Source: Verrucomicrobiaceae bacterium (GTDB lineage Bacteria; Verrucomicrobiota; Verrucomicrobiia; Verrucomicrobiales; Akkermansiaceae). Taken from it: 64,000 nt of DNA. This document shows, in pieces, positions 30,753 to 52,072 of the stretch (position 1 is the first letter of the stretch; each line of letters starts with the position of its first letter). A model generated the notes under the pieces. The model saw nothing but the letters and a program-made list of their open reading frames with translations, searched no databases and had not been told where the DNA came from. The stretch covers positions 62,001-126,000 of the forward strand of contig JAIXQH010000067.1 of NCBI GenBank assembly GCA_027484055.1, given 5' to 3'. Position numbers and translations under genes: made by a program.

Positions 30753-30783
30753 TTAACCACGGATTGCACGGATTACACGGATG
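30753..30783. repeat. Solo ACGGATT-type repeat arm
   Basis: TTAACCACGGATTGCACGG and GATTACACGGATGG form a solo copy of the arm that brackets the GxxExxY gene at 51273-51750, with a few differences. It lies between the cusA-like stop and the YHS lipoprotein start. No inverted partner is seen within the gap. Confidence 0.6.
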
Positions 30784-39408: not shown

Positions 39409-39444
39409 TTCTTGAAATGGTGGTTTGCGTGCCTATGCTTGGCC

Positions 39445-40539
39445 ATGCCACAGGCCGATCCCACCTCAGAACTCCAAGCCGCCCTCGCCGAACGGATTCT
39501 CGTGCTCGACGGAGCCATGGGAACCACCATTCGAAGCTACGGGCTCGACGAAGCCGCCGCGCGTGGTAGCCGCTATGCCGACAACGAAAAGGACCTCCTC
39601 AACAACGGCGACATCCTTTCCATCACCCGGCCAGAAATCATCGGCGACATCCACAAACGCTTCTACGAGGCTGGCTCGGACATCTGTGAAACCAACACTT
39701 TTTCCGCCACTGGCATCGCCCAGAGTGAGTTCTTTGTCGAAGATCCTCGCGAAAAAGGCGGACGCAAAGACCCCGAGTTTTTTCAGAAAATCCTCGATGA
39801 TTCCTTCCTGAACGACCTCGCCTGGGAAATGAATGTCGAGTCCTCGCGCCTCTGCCGGAAATGGGCGGACGACATTGGCAGCGACACCGGCGTGAAGCGT
39901 TACGTCGCGGGAGCCATCGGGCCACTCACCGTCTCCCTCACCAACTCCCCGGATGCGAACGACTCTGGATTCCGTGTCGTCACCTTTGACCAAGTTCTCT
40001 CCGCTTATAAACACCAAGTCCGCGCCTTGATCCATGGCGGCTGCGACATTCTCATGGTCGAGACGATTTTCGATTCGCTCAATGCGAAGGCGGCCGTCGT
40101 TGGTATCCAAGAGGTCTTCGCAGAGGATGGCCTGCGCCTGCCGATCATCATTTCCGCCGCCGTCGGGCTCGGTGGGGAAACCATGATTTCCGCGCAAAAA
40201 GTCGAAGCGCTGTGGAACGCTTTCGCCCATGCCAAGCCTCTAGCAATCGGCCTGAACTGCTCGCTCGGTCCTGATTTGATGCTGCCGCACTTGGAAGAGC
40301 TTTCCGCCTGTGCCGCCACCTGCATTTCCTGTTACCCGAATGCGGGGCTGCCGAACCCCTTGGCCCCGACGGGATTCGATTTAGAGCCGCATCACATGCA
40401 TGACTACATGGCCGAGTTCGCCAAGGCCGGCCTGCTCAATCTCGCTGGCGGTTGCTGTGGAAATACACCCGAGCATGTCGCTGCGATCGCGAAGGCCGTT
40501 GCGAAGTATGCACCACGTGAGGTCCCGGTGATTGGATGA
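39445..40539 (+). CDS. metH: Methionine synthase, homocysteine-binding module (N-terminal part of split MetH)
   Basis: From the ATG at 39445 the protein has 364 residues. It has RILVLDGAMGTTIRSYGLDE and the zinc ligands Cys272 (GLNCSLGP) and Cys337/Cys338 (GGCCGNTPEHV). These define the homocysteine methyltransferase barrel, module 1 of cobalamin-dependent MetH. It ends APREVPVIG, then TGA. The TGA is the first codon of the left arm of an inserted element (40537-41043). The rest of MetH is encoded at 41053-43812 in the same frame. The two proteins together make a full enzyme if they associate. Confidence 0.93.
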   Translation: MPQADPTSELQAALAERILVLDGAMGTTIRSYGLDEAAARGSRYADNEKDLLNNGDILSITRPEIIGDIHKRFYEAGSDICETNTFSATGIAQSEFFVEDPREKGGRKDPEFFQKILDDSFLNDLAWEMNVESSRLCRKWADDIGSDTGVKRYVAGAIGPLTVSLTNSPDANDSGFRVVTFDQVLSAYKHQVRALIHGGCDILMVETIFDSLNAKAAVVGIQEVFAEDGLRLPIIISAAVGLGGETMISAQKVEALWNAFAHAKPLAIGLNCSLGPDLMLPHLEELSACAATCISCYPNAGLPNPLAPTGFDLEPHHMHDYMAEFAKAGLLNLAGGCCGNTPEHVAAIAKAVAKYAPREVPVIG

Positions 40540-40583
40540 AGCGAAACGCGGAGGACGCTGAGAAAGAGGAGGAAGACGCAGAG
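40537..40583 (+). repeat. Left arm of the metH element
   Basis: This 47-base purine-rich arm pairs with 40997-41043 at 45 of 47 positions. Differences are at about bases 14 and 23 of the arm. Its first triplet serves as the stop codon of the N-terminal metH part. Confidence 0.9.
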
Positions 40584-40594
40584 AACTAAGTTTT

Positions 40595-40990
40595 ATGAAA
40601 ACTAGGGAGGAGTTGAATCGGCTATCTGGCGAGATCGTGGATGCGGCGATGGAAGTGCATCGCGAGTTTGTTCCAGGGCTATTGGAACGCGTTTACGAAT
40701 CCGCTCTGCAACGAGAGCTTTCGCTCCGAGGTATTTCATCGCGCCGTCAGGTTCAAACAGAAGTGTTCTACAAGGGAGAAACACTGGATGAAGATGCATA
40801 TCGGATTGATCTGCTGGTCGATGAATGTGTCGTCGTTGAAATCAAAACTGTTTCTGAAATCTTTCCGATCCACGAAGCTCAGCTTCATACTTACATGCGT
40901 CTTGCCAAAAAAAATCTCGGACTATTGATCAACTTCAATGTCATCCTTCTTCGCGATGGCATTAAACGCCGCGTCATCCATTTCCCTTAA
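40595..40990 (+). CDS. GxxExxY family protein (PD-(D/E)XK nuclease-like)
   Basis: The 131-residue protein carries the family signature in [18 protein letters not shown] (G-x-x-E-x-x-Y). It continues with [20 protein letters not shown], a D...E-x-K core of the PD-(D/E)XK type, and [20 protein letters not shown]. These small proteins are widespread in Verrucomicrobia and Planctomycetes and have no established function. The gene is the only content of the palindromic element. It starts 12 bases after the left arm and stops 7 bases before the right arm. Confidence 0.9.
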
Positions 40991-40996
40991 TAAAAT

Positions 40997-41043
40997 CTCT
41001 GCGTCTTCCTCCTCTTTCTCCGCGTCCTCTGCGTTTCGCTTCA
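40997..41043 (+). repeat. Right arm of the metH element
   Basis: This is the reverse complement of 40537-40583 with two mismatches (pyrimidine-rich on this strand). In mRNA the two arms could form a stem of about 47 bp enclosing the GxxExxY reading frame. Confidence 0.9.
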
Positions 41044-41052
41044 ATTCCAATT

Positions 41053-43812
41053 ATGAAAACCATCCCTCACGCTCTTCGCCTCTCCGGCACCGAGGCCTAC
41101 AACCACACGTCTGACAAGCGCTTCCTCATGATCGGTGAGCGGGCGAACGTCGCTGGCTCCCCTCAATTCGCCAAGCTTGTGCGCGAGGGGAATTTGGAAG
41201 CCGCAGTCGAAGTCGCACGCCAACAAGTCGCCAACGGCGCCAACGTCATCGACATCTGTTTCGATGACGGCCTCATTGACGGCAAGGCGATGATGAGCCG
41301 CTTTCTCCAACTCCTCCAAGGCGAGCCAGACGTGGCGAAAGTCCCGATCATGGTGGACTCCTCGAAATGGGAAATCCTCGAAGAAGGACTGAAGTACCTG
41401 CAAGGAAAAGGCATCGTGAACTCGATCTCGCTGAAAGAGGGTGAGGAAAATTTCAAAAAACAAGCCCGCCACATCATGCGCTATGGCGCGGCGGTCGTGG
41501 TCATGGCCTTCGACGAAAATGGCCAAGCCGCCTCCTATGATGAGAAAATTCGCATCTGTGAGCGCGCCTACCGCATCCTTGTCGATGAGGTTGGCTTCAA
41601 CCAAGATGATATCATTTTCGATCCTAACATTCTCACCGTCGCCACCGGCATTGAAGAGCATAACAACTACGCGCTCGACTTCATCAATGCCACACGCTGG
41701 ATCAAAGAGAACCTCCCCGGTGCAAAAGTCTCCGGCGGCGTTTCAAACATTTCCTTCTCCTTCAGAGGAAATAACAAAGTCCGTGAGGCCATGCACTCGG
41801 CGTTCCTCTATCATGCCGGCCGTGCGGGCATGGACATGGGAATCGTCAATGCCGGGATGCTCGAAGTCTATGATGAGATCCCGGATGAACTTCTTTGCTG
41901 TGTAGAAGACGTGCTGCTCAACCGCCGTGCCGACTCCACCGAGCGCTTGCTCGATCTGGCAGAAAGCTTCAAAGGCGTCGGCGGTAAAAAAATCGAGGAA
42001 GACCTCTCTTGGCGAGAGGCTCCTGTCGAAAAGCGCCTCGAACACGCCTTGCTCCGGGGTATCGACAAATACATCGACGAGGATACCGAGGAGGCTCGCT
42101 TGAAATATGTCCGTCCGCTCAAAGTCATTGAGGGCCCCCTCATGGATGGCATGGGCGTCGTCGGTGATCTCTTCGGTGCCGGGAAAATGTTCCTGCCGCA
42201 AGTCGTTAAATCGGCAAGAGTTATGAAGAAAGCAGTGGCTTGGCTTTTCCCCTTCATGGAAGCGGATAAGGCCGAATTCCTCGCCGGAGACATCGCCGAA
42301 CTCATGGCGGAAAATCCTGCGCTCACGGACGAAGAGGCACTCAAGCTCGCCGAGCGCGGCCGCTCGGCTGGGCGATTCCTCATCGCCACGGTCAAGGGAG
42401 ATGTGCACGACATTGGTAAAAACATCGTCGGGGTCGTGCTCTCGTGCAATGGCTTCGAAGTGACCGACATGGGCGTGATGGTTTCCTGTGATAAAATCCT
42501 CGCGAAAGCCATCGAAATAGGTGCCGACGTCATCGGTCTATCCGGCCTCATTACGCCCTCGTTAGACGAGATGGTTCACGTCGCCAAGGAGATGGAAAAG
42601 CGCGGGTTTAAAATTCCACTCCTCATCGGTGGGGCGACGACTTCTGGAGCACACACGGCGATTAAAATCGCGCAGCACTACTCCGGCCCAGTCGTCCATG
42701 TGCTCGATGCGTCACGCTCCGTGCCCGTAACCACCTCCTTGCTCTCCAAGGATCAGCGAGATGCCTTCGCGTTAGAAAATCGTGAGAAGCAGCAGAAGCT
42801 ACGCGACAATTTCCTCGGTGGCCCGAAAAAGGAAACCCTCACCCTCGCCGCCGCTCGCGAGGCTGGGCCGAAGTATGACTGGGCAAGCTACACCCCACCC
42901 GTGCCCGCCTTCACCGGCACTCGTAAGATCCAGAGCCCGTCGCTGCGTGAGCTTGTCAAATTCATCGACTGGACGCCATTTTTCCATGCATGGGAGCTTC
43001 GCGGTGTGTGGGATCGCACGACTCTCACGCTCAAGACGAAAAACGCTGAGGGTGCTGTGGAAGCGGGTAAGCTCTATCAAGACGCCTTGTTCTGGGTGGA
43101 CCGGATTATCGACGAGAACCGTTGCCATGCAGAAGGGATCTATGGGTTTTTCCCCGCGAATTCGGAGGGCGATGATATCATCGTGTGGACCGACGAGACA
43201 CGCAGCACCGAGCGCACCCGTTTCCACAGTCTTCGCCAGCAGCTCAAGAAGGACTCCGGGAAACCGAACGTCGCTCTAGCAGATTGGGTAGCTCCCATGG
43301 CGGCGGATTACATTGGAGGTTTCGTTGTCGGGATCCACGGAGCACATGAATTTGCGGAGCAGTTGGATAAGGAAATCGATCCTTACGGCTCGATCATGGT
43401 CAAGGCCATCGCCGACCGATTTGCTGAGGCGTTTGCGGAATTTCTCCATCACAAGGCCCGCGTCGAGTGGGGTTATGAGACGGAAGACGAGCTGACACAC
43501 GATCAGTTGATTCATGAAAACTACCAAGGCATTCGCCCGGCACCGGGCTACCCTGCCCAGCCGGACCATACGGAGAAACCGATTCTCTTTGATCTACTAG
43601 GAGCCTCCGAGGCCACTGGAGTCACTCTCACTGAAAGCTGCGCCATGCACCCGGGCGCGGCAGTTTGTGGATTGTATTTCTCCCATCCAGAGAGTCACTA
43701 CTTCGCTCTTTCGGAACTCCAGAAAGACCAAATGGAAGACTACGCACGGCGCAAGGGCATCTCGCTGGAAGAGGCAGAGAAATGGCTGGGCCCATGGCTT
43801 GGCTACGCTTAA
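41053..43812 (+). CDS. metH: Methionine synthase, folate/cobalamin/activation modules (C-terminal part of split MetH)
   Basis: The 919-residue protein begins IPHALRLSG after MKT, matching the residues that follow the first linker in intact MetH. Modules in order are the pterin-binding barrel (about 20-300, [20 protein letters not shown]), the cap and B12 domain with DVHDIGKN (His452 as the cobalt ligand) and [13 protein letters not shown], and the AdoMet activation domain with [12 protein letters not shown]. It transfers methyl from methyl-THF via cobalamin. It starts 9 bases after the inserted element and is in frame with the N-terminal part. A single MetH normally has about 1200-1250 residues; the two parts sum to 1283. 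Confidence 0.95.
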
Positions 43813-51252: not shown

Positions 51253-51272
51253 GTGTTGGGAAGTGAAGAAAA

Positions 51273-51750
51273 GAATTTGACCACGGATTACACGGATTTA
51301 CGGATTTTTAAGATAAATATTGGCGACTCGTTTGAAGGTAAGCGATGCCTCCCTGAAATTGAGTATTAATCCAACTTGAAGTCCCGAAATACTCAGGTAA
51401 CCCAAGGTTTGGGCGATATGGAGATCGCTGATGAAGGATGCGACTTTGGTTTCTATGATAACCTTGTTTTCGACAATTAAATCAGTGATGAGTTTGCCCA
51501 CGCTTTGTTCTCTATAAAACACGGGGAACTGTTGCTGTTGAGTGAATGAGATGGACTGCGTGGTGAACTCTATGCACAGAGCGTTTTCATAAATCTTTTC
51601 ATCAAGTCCTGGGCCAAGGGCACGGTGCACCGTCATCGCTGCACCGATGATGAGTTGGGTGAGGTCCATGTGCGGGTGGCTTGTCCGATCCTGATTCATT
51701 AAACGAGTTATCTCTTAATCCGTAAATCCGTGTAATCCGTGGTTAAAATC
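51273..51750 (-). mobile_element. Inverted-repeat element carrying a GxxExxY gene, between nuoK and nuoL
   Basis: The arms are 51273-51306 and 51717-51750. The inner 27 bases (51280-51306 and 51717-51743) are perfect reverse complements built of ACGGATT phrases, ACCACGGATTACACGGATT and on. The flanking 7 bases match at 5 positions. The 478-bp element holds one gene in the nuo direction. The nuoK stop codon (51752-51754) abuts its outer edge, and the cargo stop codon lies inside one arm. A solo arm relative lies at 30753-30783. Confidence 0.8.
51298..51699 (-). CDS. GxxExxY family protein (PD-(D/E)XK nuclease-like)
   Basis: The 133-residue protein contains HRALGPGLDEKIYENALCIE with the G-x-x-E-x-x-Y signature, then KLITDLIVENKVIIETKVAS (D...E-x-K core) and QTLGYLSISGLQVGLILNFR. 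It is clearly diverged from the copy at 40595, so the two did not arise by recent duplication. The start could also be the ATG at 51669 (MDLTQLIIGAA), which matches the family N-terminus. Its last four codons are encoded by the repeat arm. Confidence 0.88.
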   Translation of the reverse strand: MNQDRTSHPHMDLTQLIIGAAMTVHRALGPGLDEKIYENALCIEFTTQSISFTQQQQFPVFYREQSVGKLITDLIVENKVIIETKVASFISDLHIAQTLGYLSISGLQVGLILNFREASLTFKRVANIYLKNP

Positions 51751-51751
51751 T

Positions 51752-52072
51752 TCAACCTTTCAGCGAAGTCAGTTCATCCGTGTGGATTGTCTGACGGGCG
51801 CGGTAGAGGGCGACGATGATGGCGAGGCCGACGGCGACTTCGGCGGCAGCGACAGTGATGACGAAGAAAACGAGCATTTGGCCGTTGTAGTCTGGTAGTC
51901 CGTTCGCGGTAACGTGGAACCGGGAAAAGGCGACCAGTGTAAGATTTGCAGCACTCAGCATCAGCTCAAGGCACATGAAGACGATGATGATATTTCGCCG
52001 CATCACCACGCCTGCTAGGCCGATGGCGAACAGGAGTCCTGAGACGAGGAGGTAGTCGTTTAAAGTAGCCAT
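51752..52072 (-). CDS. nuoK: NADH-quinone oxidoreductase subunit K
   Basis: The 106-residue membrane protein has three hydrophobic helices with the conserved Glu in [19 protein letters not shown] and a second in [17 protein letters not shown]. It is a standard NuoK. It starts 12 bases after nuoJ and ends at the edge of the inserted GxxExxY element. Confidence 0.96.

Follow-up and report, generated by a model that had tools for sequence, protein, structure and literature searches.

The gap that separates the two parts of a split metH gene in the window (the whole 64-kb stretch of DNA that was analysed) is filled by a 507-base unit that we interpret, at a probability of roughly 0.55, as a compact selfish cassette, composed of a nuclease-fold gene and its own inverted arms and spread by nuclease-stimulated recombination. 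We favour this reading because the unit keeps to one site and one orientation, with turnover among three types (A, B and C), transfers over short tracts and fidelity to metH, and because the arms covary with the protein, inverted flanks are widespread, the PD-(D/E)XK fold has invariant acidic and lysine residues and dN/dS is low. The following features were located in the window:

39448 to 40539, plus strand: metH-N, homocysteine methyltransferase domain (PF02574, E 4.9e-74; TIGR02082 model positions 2-322)
40537 to 41043, plus strand: whole element, 507 nt, named type A (homologous gap contents in relatives)
40537 to 40584, plus strand: left arm, with units including ACGCGGAG, ACGCTGAG and ACGCAGAG
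40595 to 40990, plus strand: GxxExxY gene, PD-(D/E)XK fold, 131 aa (TIGR04256, E 4.2e-39; PF13366, E 4.5e-38)
40996 to 41043, plus strand: right arm, complementary to the left arm at 46 of 48 bases
41053 to 43812, plus strand: metH-C, pterin-binding, B12-binding and activation domains (TIGR02082 model positions 323-1181; four Pfam domains)
51271 to 51752, minus strand: second GxxExxY element, type F, in a nuoK-like/nuoL gap (gene 51298-51699)

The stop codon TGA of metH-N (40537-40539), a gene with an alternative TTG start at 39412, forms the opening triplet of the left arm, and the ATG of metH-C at 41053 follows the right arm after 9 bases. The first-pass annotation had described these junctions, the length of 507 bases, arms pairing at 45 of 47 bases and a sole enclosed gene of the PD-(D/E)XK-like GxxExxY type in the metH direction, and all of this was borne out, the profile matches naming the same family and the pairing rising to 46 of 48 when the arms are taken as 48 bases. 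Its placement of the element exactly at the interdomain gap of MetH agrees with the ends of the TIGR02082 matches of the two halves (2-322 and 323-1181), which put the gap at the Hcy/folate linker. Six inverted repeats of at least 24 nt with arms within 900 nt were found in the 64-kb window; the arms of the element are not a chance pairing, since the two near-perfect repeats (96 and 94%) are both GxxExxY elements, the others reaching 74-76%. RNA folding of 40520-41060 predicted a stable hairpin (z = -9.6 against shuffles), and Rfam gave no match within 40300-41300. The element thus carries terminal inverted repeats, a classical feature of insertion sequences; inside it a known transposase gene was absent, the enclosed GxxExxY gene matching PF13366 only. 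A lone arm-like triple unit, CCACGGATTGCACGGATTACACGGAT, was also seen at 30757-30782 on the plus strand, with no partner arm nearby.

The encoded protein scored 133.5 bits against TIGR04256 (curated cut-off 35) and 130.7 against PF13366 (cut-off 22), which makes it a member of both families. Proteins of the PD-(D/E)XK superfamily have an alpha-beta core with an active site of D and ExK. In an alignment of 79 GxxExxY sequences the residues E31, D72, E82, K84 and Q96 were invariant, and from the PD-(D/E)XK and RecB-like motifs we take them to be the putative catalytic set. The AlphaFold model obtained with 79 sequences had a mean pLDDT of 93.9, and its closest solved structure was SSO0001 (4ic1; Z 9.6 and rmsd 3.5 over 99 residues), with restriction enzymes, archaeal Hjc and exonucleases among the further matches listed, at Z 5.6-7.8. 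Foldseek also ranked 4ic1 first (E 3.2e-4), with a TM-score of only 0.41, and a sequence search of the PDB gave no convincing relative. The modelled fold and the D/ExK residues place the protein in the PD-(D/E)XK superfamily, and a nuclease role is predicted. The median dN/dS was 0.07-0.10 in four GxxExxY groups, calculated from unsaturated pairs alone (20 of 45, 26 of 78, 6 of 10 and 11 of 28). At E 0.001, Pfam reported PF13366 as the one family for the protein, the Y1 (HUH) transposase domain being absent. Three other assignments were tried and rejected: a defence system (PADLOC, weak Cas4-like matches only, best E 5.2e-4), a PHROGs family (best E just 0.0042) and carriage by phages or plasmids (no phage record; eight plasmid records, each below 60% identity). 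In the passages retrieved from open PMC full text, neither a function nor arms were found for TIGR04256/PF13366 (PDDEXK_3); six arm sequence strings gave no match there, and open PMC papers yielded neither a description of the combined cassette mechanism nor a relevant paper on split MetH with inverted repeats.

A metH match was present in 136 of 145 genomes and loci were read in 77 of them, the window's own genome being included in both counts. Among the 77 loci, 30 were supplied by the search and 47 were hand-chosen, with ten duplicate loci removed; three without the N half (L017, L021 and L057) were excluded. The resulting table of 74 loci with both halves on one contig, the window's included, comprised 66 split and 8 fused metH genes. 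The gaps of the 66 split loci contained a full GxxExxY gene in 34 cases, a partial one in four (L008, L020, L023 and L033) and none in 28, and every GxxExxY gene found in a metH gap was in the metH direction. Arm remnants were detected in three GxxExxY-free gaps (L022, L124 and L125). The gap of L069 held a 158-nt palindrome of another kind, with ACATCGA-like units. In a tree of 76 GxxExxY proteins, for which the non-metH Verrucomicrobia genes were the best-scoring loci plus hand-chosen ones, the 36 metH copies fell into lineages A (15, including the window's), B (17) and C (4), the C copies nesting in a set with 12 pheS-pheT copies, two of which were assigned to that home by their downstream side only.

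The three lineages are interleaved over the MetH tree. Two pairs of loci illustrate this: L116 (type B) and L122 (type A) have flanks 95-96% identical around gaps of 67% identity, and L019 (A) and L066 (C) have flanks 94-95% identical around gaps of 62%. At the level of sequence, the metH site in close relatives thus holds different types, remnants or nothing. Protein and MetH distances were correlated within types (Mantel r 0.60 within A and 0.47 within B), which suggests that much of the descent of A and B is vertical, with swaps and transfers on top; the swaps of type could have proceeded by ordinary recombination. A single clade of A and B had a support of only 22, and a single clade of all metH occupants was neither shown nor clearly rejected (AU p 0.053). 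We had suspected a link between the type of element and the first codons of metH-C, which proved weak on the counts of ATGCG (3 of 3 C, 1 of 19 B) and ATGAAA (12 of 15 A, 8 of 19 B), decayed copies included. In the left arm of L116 the unit TTCGCAAAG occurs in about seven tandem copies, on one side only.

When the window protein was compared with the 145 genomes, the 31 best matches by E-value outside its own genome (52-88% identity) were all at metH and the next-ranked one, at 50% identity, was elsewhere; among the lower partial matches, those in G016 and G014 are decayed metH copies and that in G106 (51%) lies elsewhere. Transfers into the same site were clear in three pairs, two at metH and one at pheS-pheT. 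The gaps of L031 and L111 are 98.4% identical over 516 aligned bases between metH parts of 81 and 84% identity, and those of L056 and L059 99.6% identical over 503 bases between metH parts of 86 and 90%. In a segment scan the identical tract extended beyond the gap by 39 nt to the left and 20 nt to the right in the first pair (gain 87 nats), and by 15 and 26 nt in the second (gain 60 nats), compared with at most 9.4 nats in six other same-type pairs and 12 nats in the near-identical pair L105/L113. At pheS-pheT, the elements of L085 and L094 are 99% identical with a downstream sequence of 87% (57 nats), little upstream sequence being available. Tracts with the cassette at their centre and a slight overlap into the coding sequence fit nuclease-stimulated recombination, and they disfavour clean transposition, in which the coding flanks would stay uncopied. 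These alignments establish site fidelity, turnover and three same-site transfers as sequence patterns, and among them recent horizontal transfers into one site that carried the cassette and short flanks only. Compared with a homing gene, the fixed homologous site is there, and transfer with co-conversion of the flanks is seen as a sequence signature only.

The arms appear to belong to the cassette. Over 34 metH loci, the arm and protein distances were correlated at a Mantel r of 0.74 (p 0.0002), and r was 0.73 once the MetH distance had been removed; the correlation of arm distance with MetH distance was 0.18. In the same way, the arms of three metH cassettes of type C were near those of the pheS-pheT C copies (mean distance 0.30-0.48) and far from the metH A and B arms (0.86-0.91). 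A global set was formed by the best 80 of at least 558 GxxExxY relatives, which lie on titled bacterial and archaeal contigs of many phyla and represent one branch of the family; 76 of these 80 had flanks long enough for arm scoring. Inverted flanks scored above the highest shuffle at 66 of the 76 loci, against 2 of 75 for a control of one neighbouring reading frame per locus at the same threshold. In 60 of these 66 loci from the best 80, both arms contained at least two units C[AG]CN[AG]A[AGT], the mean falling to 0.1 after the arm letters were shuffled; the units are mostly of about 8 bases and CRCNRAG-like. Across this best-80 set the correlation of arms and protein was weak (r 0.13, p 0.014), and flanks mispaired between different loci gave a 99th percentile of 24.8, exceeded by 39 of the 76, presumably because the arm units are so alike. 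The alignments and distances join arms and gene into one unit, varying largely independently of the host gene.

The window's own genome (4.4 Mb) contains six GxxExxY genes at E 0.01, with clean flanking arms in four (L001, L002, L003 and L006) and several arm-like repeats around L004 and L005, the arm sequence varying from copy to copy. The type F element has arms at 51271-51306 and 51717-51752 that are 94% complementary, and L133, L136, L141 and L143 carry a gene related to it with matching neighbours. Besides metH, the recognised homes include nuoK-nuoL, pheS-pheT and carA-purA, nuoK-like, nuoL and the other home gene names having been read from translations. Gene-less copies with F-type arms, of about 110 bases and 86-93% mutual identity, occur at four places in the own genome, the inverted pair being confirmed by a repeat search in three and by eye in L233. 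The pheS-pheT gap was compared in seven relatives: in three it is short or unrelated, and in four it contains a hairpin that lacks the gene, with three arm types represented (L239, L241 and L242/L243). One of these relatives, G065, has C arms without a gene at pheS-pheT and, at metH, a complete C cassette. For the window's A arms, solo copies were weak matches only, the two best without an inverted pair.

These gene-less hairpins, in the own genome and in 4 of 7 pheS-pheT gaps, together with type C at two sites and outer arm tips (AGATTTT-(G)AACC-like) that are alike in several types, would be expected if the nuclease recognised the folded arms and moved the DNA bounded by them, in the manner of REPIN/RAYT-like or TIR-type transposition, with metH and pheS-pheT as preferred or tolerated targets. 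The occurrence of type C at two sites and the several gene-less hairpins of the own genome fit transposition better than pure homing. Against it stand the identical tracts of two pairs, which reach into the coding sequence of metH, and the 31 best matches, which are all at metH, so that we consider transposition as the main route possible but rather unlikely.

The genes around the copies are mostly co-directional: among the 60 scorable loci of the best 80 of at least 558, both neighbours had the direction of the GxxExxY gene in 39, both were opposite in 3 and 18 were mixed. For the 40 non-metH Verrucomicrobia copies (32 scorable) the count was 25 both co-directional against 2 both opposite, several loci sharing one home, so that these are not 27 independent cases. 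Such an orientation bias, the low dN/dS and the stable predicted hairpin would suit a small operon gene that benefits the host and is swapped by ordinary homologous recombination, its arms serving mRNA folding or stability. The GxxExxY gene is, however, absent or partial in 32 of the 66 split metH loci, and the short cassette-centred tracts lie within flanks of 81-90% identity; we regard a host benefit as improbable.

The first-pass annotation had proposed that the element entered a contiguous metH and cut it into two genes, and had seen in its virtual excision a sequence that aligns with the natural linker of intact MetH. Fused metH genes, which it had suggested looking for in relatives, were found in five members of the family and one of the order, each as a single open frame of 1281-1412 aa. 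Within the sampled genus, the window's included, metH is split in 58 of 60 members and fused in two (L120 and L121, from G067 and G049, the genomes of L067 and L049); family members outside the genus are split in 8 of 13 cases and fused in 5 of 13, and the one order member is fused. The two fused genes inside the genus may stem from a secondary fusion or from acquisition of a fused gene. Seven of the eight split loci outside the genus, with gaps of 2-55 nt, were without any GxxExxY gene, and the eighth, L036 of a sister genus, has a type B cassette at metH. On the MetH tree the split or fused state required 2 changes and the occupant label A, B or C required 15, three of the labels, those for the decayed copies L008, L023 and L033, being assigned by hand and not from the tree. 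The split is therefore old, and cutting of a contiguous metH by the present element found no support. Virtual joining of the window's halves stays in frame, yet gives a PRE-to-LRLSG stretch 8 residues longer than the linker of fused L068, PREIPTQEPLLRLSG, which rules out a return of native MetH by excision. The alternative also offered in that annotation, an older split in whose gap the element settled, is the better reading.

It may still be that an ancestral element caused the first split. An insertion into contiguous metH in an ancestor would agree with the fused genes of sister genera and of the order, with the position exactly at the linker and with the type B cassette of the sister genus; the seven sister-genus genomes that are split without GxxExxY, the 2 changes against 15 and the linker that excision does not regain make it very unlikely. 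A MetH divided likewise, its S-methyltransferase domain being separate from the rest, is reported for Burkholderia phytofirmans in passages that mention no cassette (PMC7311316), and a three-part MetH is reported for Phaeobacter inhibens (PMC5764234).

In-frame inserts of about 220 aa were observed inside MetH of six relatives, in MetH-C near residue 751 in L055, L056, L058, L069 and L070 and near residue 626 in L074. All six contain WCVMPNHVH, which we take to be a mark of Y1/RAYT transposases, and L055, the sole one scanned with Pfam, matched Y1_Tnp at E 2.4e-6. Additional interrupted MetH matches turned up as well. A reading in which the arms are those of RAYT (Y1) transposases, with GxxExxY as a mere passenger, can hardly be credited, in spite of these Y1-like inserts and 13 Y1_Tnp matches in the own genome, as the arms covary with GxxExxY and none of the 13 Y1 loci had two-sided GxxExxY-type units by a weak finder that misses types A and F in controls. 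RAYT as a mobiliser was left unsupported; one of these Y1 loci has a one-sided run of units, and at several the inverted repeats differ in sequence from such units.

Under the selfish cassette reading, the unit would reside in the gap between co-directional operon genes, here the two parts of a metH gene that was split long ago. The predicted nuclease would cut or nick an allele without the cassette, or with another type, and repair would then copy the cassette in, as for homing endonuclease genes. The arms might be recognition or folding elements of the nuclease, and the gene-less hairpins its miniature derivatives or remains, similar to REPINs. We put at even odds the wider proposal that GxxExxY genes and their arms form one undescribed selfish class of Bacteria and Archaea, with a nuclease specificity coevolving with the arms and with both homing and REPIN-like derivatives. 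Such a role as a selfish cassette nuclease is testable for a widespread family so far named by its motif only, and it would account for the CRCNRAG-like inverted repeats around GxxExxY genes. The housekeeping operons metH, pheS-pheT and nuoK-nuoL would be recurrent homes of cassettes, and the paired arms and nucleases natural specificity variants on one scaffold. In sister species, related cassettes seem to enter this one spot, to decay there and to be exchanged for one another, a pattern that speaks for selfish DNA of a kind that has received little study and not for a one-off accident.

Among known systems, the TIGR04256/PF13366 (PDDEXK_3) family, named by motif and fold, includes the window protein as a member. 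We file the cassette neither with homing genes nor with REPIN-RAYT systems, because Y1 is absent and cleavage of the empty allele is only inferred. Free-standing homing endonuclease genes, for example those of the T4 type, are described as invading a site, degrading, being lost and then invading it again (PMC13405050). They resemble the cassette in their intergenic nuclease gene, same-site transfer, short shared flanks and cycle-like pattern. The cassette differs from them by its Cas4/RecB-like PD-(D/E)XK fold, for which cleavage is predicted, by its covarying inverted arms of repeated units and by its position in chromosomal operon gaps of many phyla. With REPIN-RAYT systems (PMC3116915) it shares a gene beside inverted short repeats and gene-less hairpin copies; in contrast to them, it has a PD-(D/E)XK protein in place of the Y1 transposase domain, its arms are made of tandem units of about 8 bases, and several of its types have fixed operon homes.
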